Below, in pieces: positions 28,560 through 55,183 of a stretch of DNA of 64,000 nucleotides (positions within the stretch are counted from its first letter, which is position 1; every line of letters begins with the position of its first letter). The notes under the pieces were generated by a model that saw only the letters and a list, made by a program, of their open reading frames with translations, had not been told where the DNA came from and did no database searches. Source of the DNA: Geoalkalibacter halelectricus (GTDB lineage Bacteria > Desulfobacterota > Desulfuromonadia > Desulfuromonadales > Geoalkalibacteraceae); the NCBI RefSeq assembly GCF_025263685.1, contig NZ_CP092109.1, positions 186,001-250,000 on the forward strand. Direction: 5' to 3'. Made by a program: the position numbers and the translations under genes.

Positions 28560-31064
28560 TTACAGTTCAGGGACAGGGAGAGGGCGCAGTTCTTGATCCA
28601 AGCCCCTCATCAATTCACCGCGGCCTGTACCATCACCAATCGGCACATTGAATTCAGCAGCCTTAATACTAAGGTTCACCAAATTGTCGGGGTTGATATC
28701 TTCGATGGCATCATACATCAACTCGCGGGCCAAAATGCTGTTATGGGCCCATCCACCCTTGTCGTCATACATGAAGTTTTTCCAGATGGCTCCGGCAATC
28801 GCCAGTTGGTTGGTGATCATTCTGGAACCGGTCGCGTCACGGGTGGAACCGGTGATGAATTTCTTGAGTCGCGCTTTCTGATCAGCAAGAGTGCCACCTT
28901 GGGCTACCGCCTCGCCCAGCACAGATTCACGCTCAAGATACTCCGCCAAAGCTTCGGTTACATCTGGATGGTTCGTTCCTGCGATAATAGCAGCAATGTC
29001 CGACTGGTTGGCCTCCGTCAGGTTCGGGTACTCGGCACTGTCGAAATCTCCATCATCAAACATGATGGCGAGTTCATCGAGGATGGTCTCCAGCAGCACC
29101 TCAGCAAAGACCTTGGTACGATCTCTCAAGGTTTCAAAGCTGCGGGTCGTAGTAATGCCGTCGCTCGGCGCGTCCGTATGACAACCTGTGCAATTGAATC
29201 CGGTCGCGAGGCCCGGTGAGTGGAAAGTGCCGGGATTTTCAGTATGGAAACTGTGGCAACCTACGCACGTTGAGCGATCGGCACGGCCCACATGATCCGT
29301 ATCTCCAAGAGCGATTGAAAGCCCCTCGGTGTAGACCTTGCCCTCATAGCCAGGAATCATTACATCCACCATCCCAAACAAGATTGGGAACTGCGCCTTG
29401 TAATGAAGATAGCTCACATTGAACACCTGCGCGGCGGTGGTGGCAAAGTTTGCTTTCAGGCCATCACGCCCTTTGTGGCACTCAAAACAAGTGCGGTTGT
29501 CATAGGTGATGTCGTTGCGCACACGAACCAGGTCGTCGACATCAACCAACGTGTCATCGCTGACGGCACTTTTGAACTCGAAAACATAGGCATCCTGGAA
29601 ATCGCGAGGCTGAGTCACATCGCCATCCGCGCCAACTGCCATGTCATGGCAGCTCACGCAGCCCAGGGCGTTCCAACGCGGGGAACCGATTCGGTCCAGA
29701 CCCTGCGCAAGGTTATTGCTGAAGGTCAATTTCGGAAATTCACGACCGGTATGGCACGGGGTACAACTAGTGCTCTCATAGGAAAATGCGTTGGAAAAAT
29801 AATTGCCGTGGGTCTTGCCGATACCTTCCGCGAAGGCGCGGGCCATTTCGCCCTCAAACTTATTGTTCGAGTGCGGGTCATGGCAAGAGGTACATGCGTT
29901 GGGGCTGGCCGGATTAACACCATAGCCCGTCACCGGTCCAGCAAAATCACCAAAGAAAGCACTCAATGTACCTGCGAAGTGGGTGTTGGACATCGTCCGG
30001 CTAAAGGCCGGGGTGCCATCAGCGCGGCGCGCGTGATAGTCGATTTCATCTCTGGTGTCCGCATCAACGGTGCCGTAAATGTCGGCCAACGCATATTCGA
30101 ACATGCCGCCGTCATTATAGCCGGCGTCCGGGTTATAGGTCACTTTCAGATCAACCATGTGGCATGCGGTACACAGGTTGAATTCGGCGGAGAACACTAC
30201 GCGATCTTGAGGAGCAGGCCCTGTATCAGTCGACACAGTTATATCAATCTCATCGAGATCGACACCGAGGTCATCTTCCCAATCGAGCCCCAAGCCAGCG
30301 GCGGTCTGATCCCCAAGTCCGCGGATCGCACCCGAATGGGCATCATGACAGGTTGTACAGCGCTTCATTGCGCTTTCATCACCGTCCCATCCTTCGGGAT
30401 AGAGCTGTCTTTGCTTGACCGAAATGACACCATTGGTCCCGACGGCAGTCGCCATATCCCCATAGGTCGTGATCTTTTGATCGATAGAAAGGTAGGCCAC
30501 GGCGCCCTGGTGGCTGTGGCAGGCGCGACAGCCGGATTCGCTGTTGTTAATGCGCTGTCTTGGATTGCCTTTGGGACTCGCGGCGAAACGCTCCGAGATT
30601 ATATTGGAGAAAGGATTATTCCCCAGATGCGTACCAGCCGCGGCCACGGTCAAAGCACTGTGGCACTGGGCACATTGGGCGTCACCAGGCGCGGGGAACG
30701 GCAGGGGACCCAGGCCGCGGTGGGCGCTGCCACCGCCATGGCAAGATTCGCAACCGACGACATTTTGGCGGTCAATCCCAAAGGCCTGCAAGGCCTCTAC
30801 ACCGTCACCGTCCGGATCATGGCAACGGAGACAGGTAGCTCTCGTATCGCCATAGCTGCCCGCCGCATGCTTGCTATCCAGCCATTTGGCAACCTGCGGT
30901 CCGCCGGCATGGCAGGTCGAACAGTTGAAGATACCAACCGTCTGCACATCCGCCGGATCGATGGGTGTCACATCCGTGCCCCCCGACCCACTGCTGCCGC
31001 AGCCCCAGAGCATCGCCGCGCTGAGCAGCAATGCGGTGAGAAAAGCGAGTTTCCTTGTTTGCAT
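28560..31064 (-). CDS. Outer-membrane 13-haem cytochrome c lipoprotein
   Basis: An 834-residue lipoprotein: the signal ends LLLSAAMLWGC with the lipobox Cys, followed by a Gly/Ser linker suited to outer-membrane export. I count 13 CXXCH motifs between about residue 45 and 650; the last 190 residues are haem-free and helical. ATG 31064 follows AGGAGGT; the longer frame upstream is rejected. It is the last gene after a porin and a periplasmic decahaem cytochrome, so it is very probably the cell-surface partner of that conduit, passing electrons to extracellular acceptors. It resembles OmcB-class proteins in role; orthology is not claimed. Confidence 0.92.
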   Translation of the reverse strand: MQTRKLAFLTALLLSAAMLWGCGSSGSGGTDVTPIDPADVQTVGIFNCSTCHAGGPQVAKWLDSKHAAGSYGDTRATCLRCHDPDGDGVEALQAFGIDRQNVVGCESCHGGGSAHRGLGPLPFPAPGDAQCAQCHSALTVAAAGTHLGNNPFSNIISERFAASPKGNPRQRINNSESGCRACHSHQGAVAYLSIDQKITTYGDMATAVGTNGVISVKQRQLYPEGWDGDESAMKRCTTCHDAHSGAIRGLGDQTAAGLGLDWEDDLGVDLDEIDITVSTDTGPAPQDRVVFSAEFNLCTACHMVDLKVTYNPDAGYNDGGMFEYALADIYGTVDADTRDEIDYHARRADGTPAFSRTMSNTHFAGTLSAFFGDFAGPVTGYGVNPASPNACTSCHDPHSNNKFEGEMARAFAEGIGKTHGNYFSNAFSYESTSCTPCHTGREFPKLTFSNNLAQGLDRIGSPRWNALGCVSCHDMAVGADGDVTQPRDFQDAYVFEFKSAVSDDTLVDVDDLVRVRNDITYDNRTCFECHKGRDGLKANFATTAAQVFNVSYLHYKAQFPILFGMVDVMIPGYEGKVYTEGLSIALGDTDHVGRADRSTCVGCHSFHTENPGTFHSPGLATGFNCTGCHTDAPSDGITTTRSFETLRDRTKVFAEVLLETILDELAIMFDDGDFDSAEYPNLTEANQSDIAAIIAGTNHPDVTEALAEYLERESVLGEAVAQGGTLADQKARLKKFITGSTRDATGSRMITNQLAIAGAIWKNFMYDDKGGWAHNSILARELMYDAIEDINPDNLVNLSIKAAEFNVPIGDGTGRGELMRGLDQELRPLPVPEL

Positions 31065-31102
31065 TGTGTTACCTCCTCTGTGTGTGTGGCGGGAAAATCC
31101 CT

Positions 31103-31948
31103 CTAGTGGCAAATTCTGCAGGTTTTGCCGTTACTGGCTCTATCGAGTCGATTCTTGCGGTCATCCCAGCCCTTGCCGTGGGGGTTGAAGCCGACGGCGC
31201 CGCCCTTGGCGCTGTGGCAGCTCAGGCAGACATCGCCCTGGGGATGGCAGGCCTGGCAGGTGGCGAGATTGCGGCGCGCTTCGCGGGCGTGATTCACCGA
31301 CCAGTCATGGAAATTGGGCGCCACCGAACCTTGCAGGTGACAGGAGTCGCAGTTGGTGCCCGCGGTCATGCCGGCGTGGATGGCGTCGATGTCGCCGTTG
31401 AAGCCCAGGCCGAAGGTGCGTGTATGGGAAGGCCCGCCCGCGCGTCCGGTGCGGCCGCGGAAATCGGCGTGGCAGTCCATGCAGAAGCTCGACTCGTGGC
31501 AGCTCGCGCAGAGCTGCTGGTTGGTGCGCGCGGCGATGGGATGGGTGATGTGGAAGTCGCTGCTGTGCACGTTGATCATGGCGTTGCCGAAATCGCCCTG
31601 CTCGTCGGCGAAGCCGGCCGTGTGGCAATCGAGACAGAAGCTCTGCTGGTGGCAGGCCGCGCAGTCCATGGCGCCGCTTTTGGCTTCGCTGCGGTGGTTG
31701 AGTGCCCACACCGGGCCGTGGGTCTTGATGGCGCCCAGGGTGGTCATCTCGCCGTACTCGGGACCGTGACAATCCAGACACACGTCCTTGTCGGGAATGA
31801 TGCTCGGGGCATCGGGCAGATGGCAGGCATCGCAGGAGATGCCCGGGAAGTAATCCTCGAGATGGGCGCGGTGGTCAAAACGCATGCCCCAGACCAGGCT
31901 TGCGCTCACCAGCAGCAGCACGAGGCTCAAGAGTCCTTTACGCGTCAT
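31103..31948 (-). CDS. Periplasmic decahaem cytochrome c (conduit component, MtrA/OmaB-like role)
   Basis: A 281-residue protein with an N-terminal signal (GLLSLVLLLVSASLVWG) and ten CXXCH motifs spread evenly through the chain. The protein ends exactly on the tenth motif (CRICH-stop). Haem number and size match the decahaem family whose members plug outer-membrane porins (MtrA-type). ATG 31948 is eight bases from AAGGAG. The gene sits between the porin (18 bases upstream) and the surface lipoprotein cytochrome (38 bases downstream). Confidence 0.92.
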   Translation of the reverse strand: MTRKGLLSLVLLLVSASLVWGMRFDHRAHLEDYFPGISCDACHLPDAPSIIPDKDVCLDCHGPEYGEMTTLGAIKTHGPVWALNHRSEAKSGAMDCAACHQQSFCLDCHTAGFADEQGDFGNAMINVHSSDFHITHPIAARTNQQLCASCHESSFCMDCHADFRGRTGRAGGPSHTRTFGLGFNGDIDAIHAGMTAGTNCDSCHLQGSVAPNFHDWSVNHAREARRNLATCQACHPQGDVCLSCHSAKGGAVGFNPHGKGWDDRKNRLDRASNGKTCRICH

Positions 31949-31966
31949 ATCCAAAACTCCTTGCCG

Positions 31967-33208
31967 TTAAAAGAGAACGTTGAGGCGGATGCGACCGCGG
32001 TTGTAGTAATCCCACAGATCGCTCTCGATCCGCTCCACCTTGGCCTGCAGGTTGACCGCGCGGGTGATGAACACCGTGCCGTCGACCCAGAAGCGCTTGG
32101 CGGTGGTTTCGTCCTTGCCGGAGTCGATGTCGAAGAAGTTGATCTGGCGATCAAAGACATCGACCTCAAGCCCCGCGCCGGCGAGCAGCCGCTGGTTGAA
32201 CAGATACGAGCCGCGCGCCTTGAAGCCGCGCAGATCCTGCCCGTCGCTGTCGCTGCGGTAGACCCCGGAGAGATAACCGGCCCAGCGCGCGGTGCGCAAC
32301 TTCTCGATACCGGCCTCAAAGACGTTGGCGTTGGAGAATTCAGGATAGATCTCGTGGGTGTAGCGGCCGAAGGCGCGCCAGCCCGGAACGATGGTGTAGT
32401 TGAGTTCGGCGAGGATTTCCTCGTACTCGTCCACCGCGAACACCGAGAAGATGGAGGTGGCAGAGAACACCGGCAGGGAGTAGAGATACTCAAGGCGCGC
32501 GTTCCAGCGGGGATTCTGATAGTACTTGGCGCCGAGCAGGAAGTAGCTCACGCGATCGGAGAGATAATCGTACTGGGTTTCGCTGTAGAGATGCAGGGCT
32601 TCGAACAGGTCGAGTTCGGCGTTGAGGCCGAAGAGTTCCTGGCCGAGATTGCCGCCGTCCCACTTGGAGACGTAGGAGAGGCCCAGATGCAGGTTCTTGT
32701 CGAGGAAGGCGCCGGCGATCTCGCCGCCGACGATGGCGTCCTTGGCGTTGTAGCCCTCGTAGTAGGTCACGTCGCCGCCGCCGAACACACTCAGGCGATA
32801 GTTGTCGAGAAAGCCGTAATCGAGCCGCAGACCGTCCATGAGTGAGGCGCCCGCGGTGGTGGAAATGAACTGACGGCCCAGGCGCGCATCGAGGGTGTCG
32901 AGAAACAGGCCCTGTTTTTCCACATAGGCGAAATAGAGCCGACTTTTCGCCGAGGCGTTGCGCTCGCCGGCCAGATCGTCGCCGAGGCGCCCGTACATGC
33001 GAAAGTCATAGCCCTGGTCGGCGATGTCGAGGACGTTGAGTTGCAGATACTGAAAGACCGGAACGATGGTGTGCTCGTTGGCGCTGTCGAACCATTCGAC
33101 AACCGTGCTGGTGCGGCCGGATACCTTGGCCCCCAGGGCGTCGCCGACCGGCCACAGGGCCAGGGTGGCCAATGCCAGACCGCATGTGAGCCCTTGCCAA
33201 ATTTTCAT
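31967..33208 (-). CDS. Outer-membrane beta-barrel porin of a porin-cytochrome conduit
   Basis: A 413-residue protein with a signal peptide (cleavage after DALGA). A continuous series of amphipathic beta strands rich in aromatic residues (RLYFAYVEKQGLFLD, YDYLSDRVSYFLLGAKYY) follows, and it ends in Phe, as outer-membrane barrels do. It has no haem motif. It would hold the decahaem cytochrome in the outer membrane and let electrons cross to the 13-haem lipoprotein. ATG 33208 has GAAGGAGG upstream. It is the first gene of the operon. Confidence 0.88.
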   Translation of the reverse strand: MKIWQGLTCGLALATLALWPVGDALGAKVSGRTSTVVEWFDSANEHTIVPVFQYLQLNVLDIADQGYDFRMYGRLGDDLAGERNASAKSRLYFAYVEKQGLFLDTLDARLGRQFISTTAGASLMDGLRLDYGFLDNYRLSVFGGGDVTYYEGYNAKDAIVGGEIAGAFLDKNLHLGLSYVSKWDGGNLGQELFGLNAELDLFEALHLYSETQYDYLSDRVSYFLLGAKYYQNPRWNARLEYLYSLPVFSATSIFSVFAVDEYEEILAELNYTIVPGWRAFGRYTHEIYPEFSNANVFEAGIEKLRTARWAGYLSGVYRSDSDGQDLRGFKARGSYLFNQRLLAGAGLEVDVFDRQINFFDIDSGKDETTAKRFWVDGTVFITRAVNLQAKVERIESDLWDYYNRGRIRLNVLF

Positions 33209-33260
33209 GGTGCCTCCTTCCCTCTCGTGCTGATTTGGTAAACACTGGTCAATCGACCCG

Positions 33261-33279
33261 AAAAAAATCCCTCTGGATT
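33261..33279 (-). promoter_or_regulatory. Terminator-like hairpin within the 5' leader of the conduit operon
   Basis: On the minus strand AATCC (33279-33275), loop AGAG, GGATT (33270-33266), then a T run to 33261. It lies between the predicted start site (about 33354) and the porin ATG at 33208, so it would end transcription before the first gene unless it is overridden. A GCCGG...CCGGC hairpin lies just upstream of it. This is the layout of an attenuator; the stem is short. Confidence 0.5.
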
Positions 33280-33360
33280 CAACGCTTTGCTCGCCGGAAC
33301 CAAGGGCCGGCAAATATTAATTAACAACAATGAGTGGCAGAATCATTAGCTAACCGTAAA

Positions 33361-33969: not shown

Positions 33970-33975
33970 AAAACC

Positions 33976-34092
33976 GTCATTTGTCATTGGTCATTGGTCA
34001 TTTGTTTTAAGACCTAAAAAGCGTCCGCGCCTGCTGGCAGGCTCTATCTTTTCACTCGCGCGTCCAACAAATGACAAATGACAAATGACTAA
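33976..34092. repeat. MITE-like repeat with GTCATTN heptad arms, copy 1
   Basis: The left arm 33976-34006 is a run of GTCATTTGTCATTGGTCATT type heptads; the right arm 34066-34092 is the inverse (AAATGACAAATGAC). The roughly 60-base core is unrelated to that of copy 2 at 36667-36803. The right arm ends directly at the hydrolase gene, contributing sequence next to its ribosome-binding site. Confidence 0.75.
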
Positions 34093-34103
34093 GGACAAAC
34101 TTT

Positions 34104-34937
34104 ATGCACGCAAAAATCAACGACATCCAACTCGCTTACACCGACGAGGGCAACGGACCGGCGCTGGTACTTATCCACGGATTCCCCTTGTGCCGAACCA
34201 TGTGGCAGCCGCAGGTGGTGGCGCTGAGTGCGGCGGGGTTTCGCGTCGTGGCGCCGGATTTGCGCGGGTTTGGTGAAAGCGAGGCGCCGCGGAGCGGGTA
34301 TTCCATGGACCGCTTTGCCGACGACATCGTCGAGCTGATGACCTATCTGGGCATCGGGCGCGCGGTGGTGGGCGGGATGTCCATGGGCGGCTATGTGCTG
34401 CTCAACCTGCTGGAGCGCCATTCGCGCCGCGTTGCCGGGGCGGCGTTTCTGTTGACGCGCTGCAACGCCGACGACGCCGCGGGCAAGGCACGCCGCGCCG
34501 AATTGGCGCAGTTGGTGCGCCAAGGAAAACGCTCGGCGGTGGAAGGAGCCTTCGCCGACATCCTCTTCGCGCCTTCCACGTCCGCCGAACAGCCGCAGCT
34601 CGTCGATACGGTCAGATCCTGGATGCGGAAAACCTCGGACGCCGGCCTGATCGGCGCCCTGGAAGCCATGGCCGCGCGCCCCGATTATTGCGACAGGCTC
34701 GGTGAATTCTCCACCCCCGCTCTGGTCATGGGCGGCGCCGAGGATCGCATCGTGCCGCAAGAGACCATCGCCCCCTTCGCCGCCGCCCTTCCCAATTCAA
34801 GCAGTTGCATCATCCCTAAAGCGGGGCACATGGCCAATCTGGAACAGCCCCAGGCCTTCAACACCTGCCTGATGGACTTTATGCGGCTGTGCAGTCAGGC
34901 TTTTGACGCACCAAGAAACGACTCCGGGAACGCTTAA
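34104..34937 (+). CDS. Alpha/beta-fold hydrolase
   Basis: A 277-residue hydrolase. HGFPLCRTMW forms the oxyanion-hole region, PDLRGFGES is the usual strand-turn, GMSMGG holds the nucleophile Ser93, GGAEDRIV carries the acid, and AGHMANLEQP the catalytic His. It is closest in pattern to small esterase/peroxidase-type hydrolases; the substrate cannot be told. No signal peptide. AAGGA precedes the ATG; the repeat ending at 34092 abuts this leader, so its expression may depend on the repeat. Confidence 0.9.
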   Translation: MHAKINDIQLAYTDEGNGPALVLIHGFPLCRTMWQPQVVALSAAGFRVVAPDLRGFGESEAPRSGYSMDRFADDIVELMTYLGIGRAVVGGMSMGGYVLLNLLERHSRRVAGAAFLLTRCNADDAAGKARRAELAQLVRQGKRSAVEGAFADILFAPSTSAEQPQLVDTVRSWMRKTSDAGLIGALEAMAARPDYCDRLGEFSTPALVMGGAEDRIVPQETIAPFAAALPNSSSCIIPKAGHMANLEQPQAFNTCLMDFMRLCSQAFDAPRNDSGNA

Positions 34938-35050
34938 TTTTTAGGCAAAACCAAGAAACCAAGGGCAAAAGGGACGCAGATCAGATCGGATCAAGGCGGA
35001 TTTTGGATTCTTTTTTTTTCCACGGCAGAGCTGGGCAGCCCCTCTTCTTT

Positions 35051-35067
35051 TTGGCACGACCATTGCT
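35051..35067 (+). promoter_or_regulatory. Sigma-54 promoter upstream of a candidate small RNA
   Basis: TTGGCAC (35051-35057), GACCA, TTGCT (35063-35067). GG and GC are separated by exactly ten bases and both elements match the consensus. No protein gene begins within 200 bases; a terminator-ended 67-base stretch follows. Confidence 0.8.
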
Positions 35068-35077
35068 TTAAAAAGTC

Positions 35078-35144
35078 TTGAGGCGATTCACGCCTTACTC
35101 ACTTCCATTGGGAGTCTCGCCGGCCGCGGGGCTCCCTCTTTTTT
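35078..35144 (+). ncRNA. Candidate sigma-54-dependent small RNA, about 67 nt
   Basis: The start is predicted 12 bases after the -12 element. Hairpin 1 is AGGCG/CGCCT (35081-35095, loop ATTCA), extendable by two pairs. A single-stranded ACTCACTTCCATT follows. Hairpin 2 (35110-35136) is an 11-bp stem, counting two G-U pairs, with loop CGGCC and TCTTTTTT directly after it, a canonical intrinsic terminator. There is no open reading frame of note inside. The C/U-rich linker could pair with ribosome-binding sites. I do not recognise the family. Confidence 0.65.
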
Positions 35145-35151
35145 ACAAACC

Positions 35152-35176
35152 CAGGGGACGTTGTTTCCTCGTCAAC
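35152..35176 (+). repeat. Solo copy of the RAYT-associated repeat
   Basis: CAGGGGACGTTGTTT then CCTCGTCAAC matches 26663-26687 at 24 of 25 positions. It lies eight bases after the small-RNA terminator. The rest of the 348-base gap 34938-35285 holds the sigma-54 promoter and small RNA and no protein gene. Confidence 0.7.
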
Positions 35177-35285
35177 TAAGCATCTTTTTTTCCGCGCAAA
35201 CCAGAACAAAACCCCGTCACCCTGGCCTTTTGTATGGTAGATTAGCCGCTTGATCTTCAGCCTTTTCAGCCAAAGGATTGAGCCG

Positions 35286-35807
35286 ATGCCGCGCATGGTC
35301 GAAAAAATCTTTGAAGGCCGTATTGTTTCCCTCCACCGCGAGGAGCATGAACTGCCCGATGGCCGCCGCGCCGTCTTTGAAATGGTGCGACATCCCGGCG
35401 GCGCGGCGATCCTGCCGCTGCTGGAGGATGGTCGGGTGTTGCTGATCCGCCAGTTTCGCCCGGCGGCGGGCGGCATGGTGTGGGAAATCCCCGCCGGGCG
35501 CCTGGAACCGGATGAGGGCCCGCTGGAGTGCGTGGCGCGCGAGATCCAGGAAGAAGTGGGCTATCGCGCGGGCACGATCGAAAAAATCGGCGAGATGCTC
35601 ACCGCCGTGGGCTTTTGCGACGAGGTGGTCCACCTGTATCTGGGAACCGACCTCGAACCTGTCGAGCGCGCCCTGGAGCCCGATGAATACATCGAGGTGG
35701 TCGCCATGCCCCTGGCCGAGGCCTTGACCCGCATCATGGATGGCGAAATCACCGACGGCAAAACCCAACTGGCGCTGTTGTTGGCGCGCAGCCAGGGAAG
35801 GGTGTAG
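35286..35807 (+). CDS. Nudix hydrolase, ADP-ribose pyrophosphatase type (NudF-like)
   Basis: A 173-residue enzyme hydrolysing ADP-ribose or related nucleoside diphosphate sugars. The Nudix box is complete (GRLEPDEGPLECVAREIQEE, then VGY, about residues 70-92). Upstream HPGGAAILPLLEDGRVLLIRQFR is the ADPRase pattern. ATG 35286 is about nine bases from AAAGGA; the TTG at 35250 is rejected. It stops three bases before the NudC gene, so the two nucleotide-cleaning enzymes form an operon. Confidence 0.9.
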   Translation: MPRMVEKIFEGRIVSLHREEHELPDGRRAVFEMVRHPGGAAILPLLEDGRVLLIRQFRPAAGGMVWEIPAGRLEPDEGPLECVAREIQEEVGYRAGTIEKIGEMLTAVGFCDEVVHLYLGTDLEPVERALEPDEYIEVVAMPLAEALTRIMDGEITDGKTQLALLLARSQGRV

Positions 35808-35810
35808 ACC

Positions 35811-36674
35811 ATGTCGCCCCTGCCCGAGAGCTACGCCTCGCCCCTCCACCTGCCATTTAACGCCACCTGCCTGGGTGATTTCACCCGCCAACCCCAAGAC
35901 GCCGACCCAGGCGGCGAGGCGGGCCTGTGGCTTGCCCTGCGCGGCACGGAACTGCTGCTGCGCGAATCCGACCAAGGCCTGGCCCTGCCGCAGGGCCCTT
36001 GCCCGCTTGCGCCTGGCGATGACACACCGATCTATCTCGGCCGCCTGCGCAACCAGCCGCTGCGCGCCCTGCACCTCGATCGTTCGACACCACAGCCTGC
36101 GGGATATGTGTTCGAGAATCTGCTCACCAACCAGCCGCGCATGGACATCGCCCAGTTAAGCCTCGGCGGCCTGGCCGCGCAGGCCCTGCACTGGGAACAC
36201 AACAGCCGCTTCTGCTCGCGCTGCGGCGCCGCGACCCAGGCCCTGCCCGGCGATGGGGGCAAGAAATGCGTTAGCTGCGGCTATGTTCACTATCCCCACA
36301 TTCACCCCTGCGTGATCGTCATTGTACGACGTCCGGGCGAAGTGCTGCTGATCCGCAAGGCCATCTGGCCGGAGGGGCGCTACAGCCTGGTGGCGGGGTT
36401 TCTTGATTTCGGCGAGTGCCTGGAAGAAGCCGTGGCGCGCGAGGTGGAGGAAGAAACGGGCGTGCAGGTCACCAACATCCGCTACATCGGCAGCCAGGGC
36501 TGGCCCTTCCCCAGCCAGCTCATGGCCGGCTTCGTCGCCGACTACACCGGTGGCGAGGTACGGGTGCAGGAATCGGAACTCGAGGACGCCCGCTGGTTCC
36601 CCGTGACCGCCCTCCCCACCCTGCCGCCCAAACGCAGCATTGCTAGATATTTGATTGATAAGTTCTGTCATTAG
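35811..36674 (+). CDS. nudC: NADH pyrophosphatase / RNA decapping hydrolase
   Basis: A 287-residue Nudix protein. A four-Cys zinc ribbon (FCSRCGAAT...KCVSCGY) precedes HYPHIHPCVIV. The Nudix box is GFLDFGECLEEAVAREVEEE then TGV, and SQGWPFPSQLM is the NudC-specific motif (normally SQPWPFPxS). It cleaves NAD(H) and removes NAD caps from RNA in characterised homologues. Co-transcribed with the ADP-ribose pyrophosphatase upstream. Confidence 0.94.
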   Translation: MSPLPESYASPLHLPFNATCLGDFTRQPQDADPGGEAGLWLALRGTELLLRESDQGLALPQGPCPLAPGDDTPIYLGRLRNQPLRALHLDRSTPQPAGYVFENLLTNQPRMDIAQLSLGGLAAQALHWEHNSRFCSRCGAATQALPGDGGKKCVSCGYVHYPHIHPCVIVIVRRPGEVLLIRKAIWPEGRYSLVAGFLDFGECLEEAVAREVEEETGVQVTNIRYIGSQGWPFPSQLMAGFVADYTGGEVRVQESELEDARWFPVTALPTLPPKRSIARYLIDKFCH

Positions 36675-36803
36675 TCATTTGTCACTGGTCATTTGTTGTG
36701 AGCGTTGTCACCCGCCAGCGGTGAGAAAACGCGCCAAGATGGACATCCGCAGGGTTCTTTAATTTGGGTTTTTACAAATGACTAATGACCAATGACAAAT
36801 GAC
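36667..36803. repeat. MITE-like repeat with GTCATTN heptad arms, copy 2
   Basis: The left arm 36667-36701 (GTCATTAGTCATTTGTCACT...) and the inverse right arm 36774-36803 flank a 70-base core. The arms are homologous to those at 33976-34092. It starts within the stop region of nudC. This and the next two entries account for the 383-base gap 36675-37057. Confidence 0.75.
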
Positions 36804-51825: not shown

Positions 51826-53499
51826 ATGAGCGACTGGCTGATTCCCTCGCAGATCGCCTCGCTGTGCGGCAGCGCCGTACTGGTTGTGGTCTTCGCCTCC
51901 CTGTTCGCCCGCGACCGCAAGCCCCATCTGGCCCTTTGGGCCTGGTGTTGGGCCTTCTATGCCCTGTGCTTCGCCCTGGCCCTGACCGCCGCGGCCTTTC
52001 CCCGCGCCGATGCCCTGTTATCTGCCCGCGAACTGAGCCTGGTGGTCAGCTCCTTGCTGCTGGTGGCCGGCGGACACGCCTTTGTGGGCCGCAAGCTGCC
52101 GAGATTTTGGCAGGCCCTGGCCCTGCTCGCTACGCTCTGGACGCCGTTGGCGCTGAGCACCGGTTCCCTGGTGCATCTGCTTCCCGTTTATCTCTTTCAC
52201 GCCCTGGTCGCCATCACCACGGGCCTGCTTATTCTGCGCGCCACCGAGTTTTATGCCTTCGGTCGCTACCTCACCGGCGGGGTCCTCATCCTCTGGGGCC
52301 TGCACCGGGCCAACTACCCGTTGCTCGCCTCCATCCCCGAAATCGCCCCCTGGGGTTTTTTGCTCGGGGCTTTTTTCAGCTTTGCCTCGGCCGGCGGCAT
52401 CATTCTGATTCACTTCGCCCGCGCCTGCGACGCCGCCGAGGACAGTCGCCGCCTCAGCCAGACCCTGCTCGATGCCATTGCCGACCCCCTGGTTCTGCTC
52501 AGCGCCGATTTGCGCGTGCAGTGGAGCAACCAGGGCGCCTGGCGGCACCTGTCCCCGGCCCTGGAAACTCCCGCCGGGCGCCGCTGCTTCGAGCTGTGGC
52601 GCGGGCGCGACCAGCCCTGCCGGCCCTGCCCAGCCCGTAGCAGCTTCGACACGGGCACCTCTGCCGATCTGCAACTGGAAACGGAGGACGGGCGCAACTG
52701 GGCGGTGCGCGCCTTTCCCGTTCCCGGAAAAGCCCCCGGCAAGGTGGTCGGGGTCATTTTGCATTTCGAGGATCAGGCCCCCAAGCGCGAGAGCAGCCGC
52801 CAGGCGCAGCTCGCCGCCCTGGGCGAGCTCTCCGCCGGGGTCGCCCACGAGATCAACAATCCCATCAACGGCATCATCAATTACGCCGAGCTGCTCGGCG
52901 ATACCCTGCCGCCCGCGGGGAGCGAGGCCGACCTGGCGCGCCGCATCGGGAGCGAAGCCGAACGCATCGCCACCATCGTGCGCAACCTGCTGCGCTTTGC
53001 CCGGGACAGCCGCGAGGACAAGGAGGCGGTGCTGCTCTATGAAATTCTTCTCGATACCCTGGTGCTGTTCGAGGCGCAGTTGCGCCGCCATGGGGTCGAA
53101 ACTCTGATCGACATGGCCCCTGATCTGCCGGCGGTGCGGGTACACCCGGAGCAGATCCAGCAGGTGTTTCTCAATCTGCTCAGCAACGCCCTGTTCGCCC
53201 TCAACGAAAAATTCGCCGTCGGAGCCGCCGGTAAGCAGATCGAGATCTCGGCGACCCGCATCGAGGAGGAGGGCCAGGCTCTGCTGCGCACCTGCATTCA
53301 CGATCGGGGAGCGGGCATCGCCGTCGAGCACCTGGCGAAGGTCATGAACCCGTTTTTCACCACCAAGCCACCGGGCAAGGGCACCGGACTGGGCTTGTCC
53401 ATCAGCCACGGCATCGTGCGCGATCACGGCGGGCGACTCGCCATCGAAAGCCACGCGGGTGAATGGACCCGCGTCACCCTGGATCTGCCCTGCGCCTGA
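51826..53499 (+). CDS. Membrane sensor histidine kinase (NtrB/PAS type)
   Basis: A 557-residue kinase. Seven or so N-terminal transmembrane helices (residues 5-205) form the input domain. A PAS-like segment (LLDAIADPLVLLSADLRVQWSNQ) has a short Cys pair (CRPC). The phosphoacceptor is in ELSAGVAHEINNPINGIINY, and the ATPase domain carries NLLSNALFAL, DRGAGI, FFTTKPPGKGTGLGL. It is followed 16 bases later by a sigma-54 response regulator, its obvious partner. The seven-helix input suggests a membrane-soluble or small-molecule signal; which one is unknown. Confidence 0.93.
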   Translation: MSDWLIPSQIASLCGSAVLVVVFASLFARDRKPHLALWAWCWAFYALCFALALTAAAFPRADALLSARELSLVVSSLLLVAGGHAFVGRKLPRFWQALALLATLWTPLALSTGSLVHLLPVYLFHALVAITTGLLILRATEFYAFGRYLTGGVLILWGLHRANYPLLASIPEIAPWGFLLGAFFSFASAGGIILIHFARACDAAEDSRRLSQTLLDAIADPLVLLSADLRVQWSNQGAWRHLSPALETPAGRRCFELWRGRDQPCRPCPARSSFDTGTSADLQLETEDGRNWAVRAFPVPGKAPGKVVGVILHFEDQAPKRESSRQAQLAALGELSAGVAHEINNPINGIINYAELLGDTLPPAGSEADLARRIGSEAERIATIVRNLLRFARDSREDKEAVLLYEILLDTLVLFEAQLRRHGVETLIDMAPDLPAVRVHPEQIQQVFLNLLSNALFALNEKFAVGAAGKQIEISATRIEEEGQALLRTCIHDRGAGIAVEHLAKVMNPFFTTKPPGKGTGLGLSISHGIVRDHGGRLAIESHAGEWTRVTLDLPCA

Positions 53500-53515
53500 A
53501 CCTAAAGGATTTTCC

Positions 53516-55183
53516 ATGTCCCAGCACATTCTGATCGTCGATGACGAAGAAAGCATCCGCTATACCTTTTCGCGTTTCCTGTTGGCCCCGGGGCGGACGG
53601 TGGAGGTGGCGCATAGCTACGAGGAGGCGCTGGAGAAGCTAACGACCTGCGCCTTTGATCTGATTTTCTGCGACATTCTTCTCGGCGGACGCAGCGGCAT
53701 CAATCTTCTCGAGGAGGTCCGGCGGCGCGGCCTCTATTTGCCGGTGGTCATGATCACCGGCGCTCCCGAGGTGGACAGCGCCACCGAGGCCCTGCGCCTG
53801 GGGGCCTACGATTATCTCGCCAAGCCGGTGCGGCGCGAGGCGCTGCTGCGCATTGCCGACAAGGCCCTGCAGTACAAGGCGCTGCGCGATGAAAAGGAGA
53901 AGCTTCAGGCGGATCTGCAGGCCGTGTTCCGCAGCGTCAAGGACGCCATCCTCACCACGGACGGCGACCTGCGCCTGGTGCAGGCCAACGCGGCCGCCGG
54001 CCGCCTGTGCGGCATCTCCGCCGCCCGCGCGGGAGAATCCCTCGACCAGCTGGCACCCTGCGCGGACAGGTGTCTCGGGTTGCTGCGTCAGAGCCTGGAA
54101 AGCCGCCGCACCCTGGAGCGCGAGCGCATCGAATGCGTACATCCGCGCCACGGACGGCGCATCGTGTCAGTGTCCGCCTCACCCCTGCGCGGCGCCCAGG
54201 GCGAACATCGCGGCGCAATGCTGGTGGTCCGCGACGAAACCCGGCTCGACGCCCTGGAACGCCGCATCGGCGAGCGCTCCAGCTTTCATGGCCTGGTGGG
54301 CACCAGCGCGCCCATGCAGGAGGTCTATGCATTGCTCGAAACCCTCGCCGAGGTCCCCACCACGGTGCTGATTACCGGGGAGAGCGGCACGGGCAAAGAA
54401 CTGGTGGCGCGCGCCCTGCACGATGGGGGACCGCGCCGGGACGGACCCCTGATTCGCGTCAACTGCGCGGCGCTTTCGGAGAACCTGCTGGAGAGCGAAC
54501 TCTTTGGCCATGTACGCGGCGCGTTCACCGGCGCCGTCAAGGACAAGGTGGGGCGTTTCGAGGCGGCGCACGGCGGCACCCTGTTTCTGGATGAGATCGG
54601 CGACATCACCCCCGCCCTGCAACTGCGCCTGCTGCGCGTGCTGCAGGAAAAGGAAATCGAGCGGGTCGGCGCGAATCGCTCGATCCCCGTGGACGTGCGG
54701 GTGGTCGCGGCGACCAATCAGAACCTGACCGAGAAGATCCGGCGCGGTGAATTCCGCGAGGATTTGTTTTACCGCCTCAAGGTGGTAACGGTGAAGCTGC
54801 CGCCCCTGCGGGAGCGGCGCGAGGATATCGCTCCCCTGGCGGCGCATTTTCTCGCGCAGTTCAATGAAAAGCTCGGCCGCGACATCCGCGACCTCTCGCC
54901 CGAGGCGCACAAGGCCCTGCTGGCCCATCCCTGGCCGGGCAACGTACGCGAGCTGCAGCATGCCCTGGAGCACGCCTGCATCCTGTGCCGCAATGGTCGC
55001 ATCGAGGTCGCTCATCTGCCGGCGGAAATCATCACCGCGGCCGCCACCGCGGATCAGGCCATCAGTCCGGCGGCTATTCAGCGCGCCCTGCACGCCGCCG
55101 GGGGCAATAAAACCCAGGCGGCGCGGATGCTCGGTATCAGCCGACGCACGGTCTACCGCAAACTCGAGGAGGACCAGGGCTGA
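53516..55183 (+). CDS. Sigma-54-dependent response regulator (NtrC family, with PAS domain)
   Basis: A 555-residue activator. Receiver domain 1-125 (VDDEESIRYTF, phosphoacceptor Asp in FCDILLGG, Lys in YLAKPVRR). A PAS domain spans about 130-245, less common in this class. The AAA+ domain has Walker A GESGTGKE, the sigma-54 contact loop GAFTGA, and Walker B LFLDEIGD. A Fis-type helix-turn-helix closes the protein (NKTQAARMLGISRRTVYRKL). ATG 53516 follows AAAGGA. It acts with the kinase upstream; nearby sigma-54-like sites at 35051 and 55362 are possible but unproven targets. Confidence 0.95.
   Translation: MSQHILIVDDEESIRYTFSRFLLAPGRTVEVAHSYEEALEKLTTCAFDLIFCDILLGGRSGINLLEEVRRRGLYLPVVMITGAPEVDSATEALRLGAYDYLAKPVRREALLRIADKALQYKALRDEKEKLQADLQAVFRSVKDAILTTDGDLRLVQANAAAGRLCGISAARAGESLDQLAPCADRCLGLLRQSLESRRTLERERIECVHPRHGRRIVSVSASPLRGAQGEHRGAMLVVRDETRLDALERRIGERSSFHGLVGTSAPMQEVYALLETLAEVPTTVLITGESGTGKELVARALHDGGPRRDGPLIRVNCAALSENLLESELFGHVRGAFTGAVKDKVGRFEAAHGGTLFLDEIGDITPALQLRLLRVLQEKEIERVGANRSIPVDVRVVAATNQNLTEKIRRGEFREDLFYRLKVVTVKLPPLRERREDIAPLAAHFLAQFNEKLGRDIRDLSPEAHKALLAHPWPGNVRELQHALEHACILCRNGRIEVAHLPAEIITAAATADQAISPAAIQRALHAAGGNKTQAARMLGISRRTVYRKLEEDQG

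Follow-up and report, generated by a model that had tools for sequence, protein, structure and literature searches.

A probable sigma-54-controlled small RNA of Geoalkalibacter with predicted pairing to the start codon of a porin mRNA

In the 64,000-nucleotide stretch of Geoalkalibacter halelectricus DNA analysed here (the window), a hairpin, a linker and an intrinsic terminator were found behind a promoter of their own, and together they form what we regard, from sequence and conservation, as an almost certain small RNA (sRNA) gene. Since its -24/-12 element is exact, the spacing of that element is conserved and 37 matches to the enhancer-binding domain were found in the genome, control of the sRNA by sigma-54 is likely. 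Granted the gene and this control, it is probable from the predicted duplexes that the sRNA pairs with the start of a porin mRNA, and we propose, with somewhat better than even confidence in the whole explanation, a sigma-54-controlled, Hfq-assisted sRNA that would repress one porin.

In the proposed mechanism, an enhancer-binding protein would switch the sRNA on through sigma-54, and the -24/-12 promoter would give an RNA of about 67 nt from about 35078, with hairpin 1, an exposed linker and the terminator. Hfq would hold this RNA by its U-rich tail. The linker CUUACUCACUU would land on the GUG start codon of the porin mRNA, at positions -2 to +9, and hairpin 1 would then open so that its 3' arm extends the duplex by four pairs beyond a bulged A, up to about +13. 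Since the start codon would be bound and closed to ribosomes, less porin would be made, and the sRNA would in this way repress an outer-membrane channel under sigma-54 control.

An earlier note on this DNA had described a consensus -24/-12 promoter with GG and GC ten bases apart. This element was exact (Table 1), its distance to the predicted RNA is the one expected of such a promoter, and its spacing was kept in all four Geoalkalibacter species. The core TGGCAC-N5-TTGC has its sole exact copy in the window here, with 0.21 copies expected from shuffled sequence, and was found 21 times genome-wide compared with six for a reversed control pattern. Because at least one copy arose in 17 of 100 shuffles, the motif by itself is no rarity. 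No sigma-70-type promoter was found within 34900-35400. The 37 matches to the enhancer-binding domain in the genome include 33 strong ones, and one such regulator, with receiver, PAS, AAA+ and Fis-type HTH domains, is encoded in the window at 53459-55183. The sRNA had been suggested to respond to an enhancer-binding regulator, such as this one or a nitrogen or flagellar regulator; no link between the sRNA and the regulator in the window, which lie about 18 kb apart, was found. In Geobacter sulfurreducens, an rpoN deletion was not obtained (PMC2725144).

The 69 bases from 35077 to 35145 were predicted to fold into two hairpins with an energy of -30.2 kcal/mol (z -4.47), and none of 200 shuffles equalled this value. 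For the opposite strand the z score was -1.70, with 10 of 200 shuffles equal. The RNA of the other three species gave z scores of -4.36, -4.18 and -3.92. These folds, together with the conservation of the layout in all four genomes, bore out the hairpin, C/U-rich linker and intrinsic terminator that had been read from the letters. The linker after hairpin 1 runs to 35109, and every cell of the terminator stem was paired in the four species. A terminator scan of the 501-base stretch 34900-35400 returned one site; as 0.9 such sites are expected in shuffles, the terminator by itself is no rarity either. By eye, neither an evident reading frame nor a protein start with a ribosome site was seen inside the sRNA; the earlier note had likewise seen no protein start. 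The 5' end (35075-35080) was placed from the promoter and the 3' end from the terminator. The promoter and the conservation support the previously proposed discrete sRNA gene that would begin near 35078 and end at the terminator. This terminator is Rho-independent and has a U tail, Hfq is present in all four genomes of the genus, and by inference the U-rich tail is the likely Hfq site.

Table 1. Features of the sRNA locus (window coordinates) and of a second RNA elsewhere in the same genome
Feature	Position	Strand	Evidence
Alpha/beta hydrolase gene, directly upstream	34104..34937	+	Pfam PF00561; syntenic anchor in 4/4 species
Left half of dispersed inverted repeat	34969..35005	+	Present here in 4/4 species; 17/29 columns identical in 34977-35005
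Full promoter TTGGCACGACCATTGCT (TTGGCAC-N5-TTGCT)	35051-35067	+	Read from sequence
-24 element TTGGCAC, sigma-54 promoter	35051..35057	+	5/7 columns identical in 4 species; GG in 4/4
-12 element TTGCT	35063..35067	+	5/5 columns identical in 4 species; GG-GC spacing exact; spacer 1/5
Predicted small RNA, ~67 nt	35078..35144	+	Fold z -4.47; conserved in 4/4 genus genomes
Hairpin 1, core AGGCG-AUUCA-CGCCU at 35081-35096	35079..35097	+	Predicted fold; core invariant in 4 species
Predicted pairing seed CUUACUCACUU in linker	35094..35104	+	11 nt perfectly complementary to porin start-codon region
Intrinsic terminator: stem 35110-35136, tail TCTTTTTT to 35144	35110..35144	+	Fold and terminator scan; 30/34 columns of 35110-35143 identical
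NUDIX hydrolase gene, downstream	35286..35807	+	PF00293; start by eye
Second RNA, two-hairpin sRNA, sigma-70-type	G000 C1 ~3101108-3101182	+	Loci L178, L163, L171, L165, L181

In each of the four Geoalkalibacter genomes, the sRNA is preceded by one and the same alpha/beta hydrolase gene. When the four species were compared column by column, identity was mostly confined to separate blocks. Only one of the six columns before the promoter was identical, the two promoter elements were conserved to the extent given in Table 1, and none of the 13 columns in the gap between promoter and RNA was identical. Hairpin 1 plus the linker (35081-35103) was identical in all 23 columns, followed by two of the next six, the largely conserved terminator and one of seven columns downstream. 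Conserved elements with diverged stretches between them form the pattern of a promoter and an RNA gene, and because this pattern is kept in all four genomes of the genus, promoter and RNA together are above chance. Only one base pair, in the terminator, had changed on both sides; this was equalled in 235 of 500 shuffles and was not significant. Since the core of hairpin 1 is invariant, covariation was unable to test this hairpin, and support for the structure therefore comes from energy and conservation.

When 58 genomes, including that of G. halelectricus, were searched with the DNA sequence, strong matches were confined to this genome and its three congeners. The covariance search of Desulfuromonadales that the earlier note had put forward did not reveal an order-wide RNA: with 36 candidates scored per genome and strict filters, strong matches (E at most 2.9e-20) were obtained only in the four genus genomes out of 136, the next match had an E value of 1.1e-4, and none of the remaining 132 genomes had a strong match. 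By the same model the sRNA is single copy in its own genome, where the next match had an E value of 3.1. Among 26 weaker covariance loci, those viewed in place (L044, L046, L050, L052 and L057 left out) looked like ordinary terminators or coding sequence, and two Erwinia persicina records with a 21-base motif were considered chance. One genome of the same family, G004, has CTTACTCAC followed by a terminator-like stretch; no -24/-12 element was seen before it, and it was not counted as a relative. This CTTACTCAC, near base 1500 of locus L166, stands after a GGCCT...AGGCC repeat and before the terminator-like stretch, which has eight T, and may represent a diverged RNA with this layout.

No Rfam family matched the 64-kb window at gathering scores, and the best match below threshold was a CRISPR repeat model with an E value of 0.84 (15 of 39 bits). 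Membership in Qrr or another Rfam family was accordingly rejected, as no covariance match exceeded a gathering score. A protein-titrating RNA of the CsrB/RsmY type was also rejected, because such RNAs carry several GGA motifs in hairpin loops, whereas the only GGA here sits in the terminator stem, as read from the folds.

Since the linker is invariant, its complement AGTGAGTAAG was searched in the four genomes. Nine matches were found, namely the four sRNA genes, three porin start codons, one leader of an ext-like operon and one place elsewhere, L103 in G. halelectricus, which was without such context. The three porin matches belong to one orthologous gene in G000 (the own genome), G001 and G003. 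Its GTG start, which was placed by eye after AGGAGG, reads AGGAGGCCAAA-GTGAGTAAGAGCGTT, and the protein has 447 aa with a signal peptide recognised by eye. The porin scored 68.6 bits against NCBIfam DESULF_POR1 (outer membrane homotrimeric porin), which is under the cut-off of 250, and no Pfam family matched at E 0.01. At E 1e-20, relatives were present in 10 of 48 genomes, with 85%, 70% and 60% identity in G003, G001 and G005, respectively, and more distant ones in the others. This porin was not found in G002, which carries the RNA and is 92% complete in about 200 contigs.

The conserved RNA stretch ACGCCUUACUCACUU is complementary to positions -2 to +13 of the porin mRNA, with 15 pairs (16 in G001) and one bulged A; these pairs are formed by the seed together with the hairpin-1 arm ACGC (35090-35093). 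The linker had been thought suited to pair with Shine-Dalgarno sequences. This stood in part, in that its conserved portion CUUACUCACU fits the start-codon region GUGAGUAAG of the porin, whereas the UUCC portion differs between species. The predicted duplex energies are -22.0, -22.4 and -22.8 kcal/mol for G000, G001 and G003, and the values net of opening both RNAs are -8.5, -10.5 and -11.5 kcal/mol. None of 2000 mononucleotide-shuffled linkers equalled the linker on the porin target. By plain duplex energy with 20 bases, the porin came first among 124 candidate starts in the stretches of the own genome that were covered (-22.0, next -20.1), and it was also first with the conserved 14 bases (-20.2, next -16.4) or the linker (-11.3, next -10.4). 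Because the porin had been picked beforehand by the seed match, this rank is a weak test. A ranking by net energy, in which the porin start scored -6.7, placed it 10th of the 124. Target prediction with the linker as seed, which the earlier note had recommended, led to the porin start in three species and placed it first by duplex energy, but only tenth by net energy. An unrestricted duplex calculation produced long implausible hybrids and was dropped.

Nine candidate starts therefore have a better net energy than the porin, and its duplex energy (-22) is equalled at three further sites of the window; short seeds match many places, and the RNA is present in G002, where the porin was not detected. 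These observations favour a different reading, in which the sigma-54 sRNA is real but acts mainly on a different mRNA, or by binding a protein, with the porin match due to chance or of minor weight. We consider this reading rather unlikely. The starts that outrank the porin would mostly be bound by the CUUCC stretch on Shine-Dalgarno-like sequences, and CUUCC is absent in the other species, whereas the invariant part of the RNA matches the porin start in all three porin-bearing species; moreover, two unrelated RNAs share complementarity to the same start. Since most of the higher-ranking starts use the non-conserved CUUCC, the argument for the porin draws less on energy than on position and conservation. 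A conserved, accessible seed against an mRNA start was found in the three porin-bearing species of the four with the RNA. The 20 bases from the porin start codon are identical in these three species, with divergence thereafter, the porins themselves being 70-85% identical. In G005, where the sRNA was not found, the porin start shows the same conservation over 14 bases, which indicates that this start is not kept for the sRNA alone.

The two further RNAs were found through nine shared bases, GTGAGTAAG. There are 24 copies of this 9-mer in the four genomes, compared with 20 of a reversed control, so that it is not enriched as a whole. The 24 matches comprise four in the sRNA, three in the porin, four in a second RNA gene, one in the ext-like leader and 12 elsewhere; one of these 12, G003 L153, was seen in one species only and is at a start that, from its context, looks like rnpA. 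In G005 there are three matches, in the porin, in the second RNA and at one place elsewhere. The second RNA (Table 1) has a TAATAT (-10) box in four aligned copies. Its first hairpin encloses CUUACUCAC, which the ext-like leader also carries against the same porin site, and its terminator loop region contains the anti-Shine-Dalgarno stretch CCCUCCUGG; one loop matches the start codon of the porin and the other its Shine-Dalgarno sequence. With the porin of G005, the second RNA would form 11 contiguous pairs. It was found in five of six family genomes (G000, G001, G002, G003 and G005, the last from another genus of the family, with the copy at L181 in G003 differing slightly) and not in G004, and the four loci scanned against Rfam had no match. 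The third RNA, the leader CTTACTCACTTTGGCC of G000, is exactly antisense to the porin start over 16 bases and complementary over about 22 in all, with a duplex energy of -44.6 kcal/mol. It precedes a gene for an ExtI-like porin (93.0 bits, under the cut-off of 150) and one for an enhancer-binding protein. The second RNA and the leader are post hoc findings made via the shared nine bases, and their further complementarity was unselected. We tentatively suggest, with less than even confidence, that three unrelated RNAs with different promoters converge on one porin start codon as a hub for nitrogen, carbon or electron-acceptor signals. If this is true, those signals would act through the hub mRNA to shut an outer-membrane channel of metal-reducing bacteria. 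In enteric bacteria, several RNAs acting on one porin mRNA are familiar.

The leader element GTCCTGAGCANGACANTAAAAGGCTCATTTTTT (L142; G000 C1:925779-926119, minus strand) was also observed in seven other genomes of the 30 searched (L143-L149), with 87-94% identity. By eye, TGGCAC, N5 and a -12-like NTGA or NTGT stand upstream in all seven (TGGAAC in G000). Several copies have an anti-Shine-Dalgarno stretch just before them, several are followed by a small exported-protein-like gene, and the six loci scanned had no Rfam match. This element is possibly an order-wide sigma-54 leader RNA or sRNA.

The distance from the hydrolase stop codon to the hairpin core is nearly constant, at 141-158 bases in each of the four species. 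This would favour a structured 3' end of the hydrolase transcript, in which the RNA is derived from the 3' UTR or is a mere terminator and the promoter-like motif is inactive. A parallel exists in Campylobacter, where a sRNA with a conserved RpoN-like motif near its end, inactive in a reporter, is mostly cut from an mRNA; the motif was placed at -18 to -3 and not at -24/-12, an unusual distance (PMC11187230). This case calls for some caution on the sigma-54 control proposed here. In Geoalkalibacter, however, the -24/-12 elements are conserved and the DNA around them is not, with only six of 45 columns identical between gene and promoter (35006-35050). Among 20 hydrolase loci scanned downstream, the RNA was present in all four of the genus, whereas its exact motifs were absent behind the 16 homologues outside the genus (one flank N-masked, one cut short). 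On balance, an origin from the hydrolase transcript is unlikely. A leader with an attenuator for the downstream NUDIX gene, which is on the same strand about 140 bases past the terminator in the own genome, is very improbable, as this gene is about 800 bases away in G002, a 177-codon opposite-strand reading frame directly follows the RNA in G001 and the sequence past the terminator is not conserved; the NUDIX gene is not thought to be controlled by the sRNA.

The stretch 34969-35005 was rejected as an upstream activator site because it is half of an inverted repeat dispersed at other intergenic places of the genus; a putative activator function is possible there. The repeat has arms of the type GGGGACACGGATCAAATCTGATCAAGGCGGATTTT and occurs at several intergenic places (34969-35005, L072-L091), with the left half only before the sRNA promoter. 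Short repeats of the TCATTTGTCATTGGTCATTTGT type with inverted copies flank neighbouring genes at 33970-34100 and 36670-36800. The minus-strand genes at 28560-33313, which encode numerous CXXCH haem motifs and also a beta-barrel-like protein, likely form an extracellular electron transfer cluster.

No sign was found that the sRNA gene itself has been described, given the absence of an Rfam match and of a Geoalkalibacter small RNA paper in the open-access literature, where a search for Geoalkalibacter with small RNA found nothing. Titles and abstract openings of the open-access papers listed for Geobacter, sRNA and Hfq named no characterised base-pairing sRNA, and such RNAs appear little studied in this bacterial group. 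Since the promoter class, the seed and a precise target are given, the proposed sRNA is testable at once. If it is confirmed, a porin would be controlled under sigma-54, compared with sigma-E for several well-known porin sRNAs.

The sRNA belongs to a kind already known, that of sigma-54 sRNAs such as Qrr and of porin-silencing sRNAs such as MicA. CrcZ and CrcY are sigma-54-dependent and NrsZ is a small RNA under sigma-54; these RNAs and GlmY/GlmZ are longer and differently built than the sRNA described here, and the NrsZ model gave 5.8 bits, compared with a cut-off of 76.9. GlmY and CrcZ act through proteins, unlike the base pairing predicted here. GlmY and GlmZ have been described as small RNAs under sigma-54 (PMC3162934), and CrcZ and CrcY as small RNAs (PMC6292655). 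A studied sigma-54 regulon in a related genus is that of G. sulfurreducens RpoN, with 110 predicted promoters in noncoding regions, all collected in front of protein-coding genes; neither small RNA nor sRNA occurs as a term in the main text of that paper (PMC2725144).

Like the Qrr RNAs, which depend on sigma-54 and LuxO, the sRNA is predicted to be a small RNA made from a sigma-54 promoter. Qrr RNAs act with Hfq. Qrr1 of Vibrio has a sigma-54 promoter that is controlled by an enhancer-binding protein (PMC10162802), and Qrr RNAs destabilise an mRNA (PMC2680268). The sRNA differs from them in having no Rfam match, a single copy, another host group and a porin, as opposed to a quorum regulator, as its predicted target. 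Among porin regulators, sRNAs under sigma-E bring about the decay of omp mRNAs (PMC1804206), and VrrA acts on ompA (PMC2628432). Like MicA, RybB and VrrA, the sRNA would, by prediction, pair with an mRNA for an outer-membrane protein around its start; those RNAs need sigma-E and belong to enteric bacteria and Vibrio, whereas the sRNA of Geoalkalibacter has a sigma-54 promoter and matches no Rfam family.
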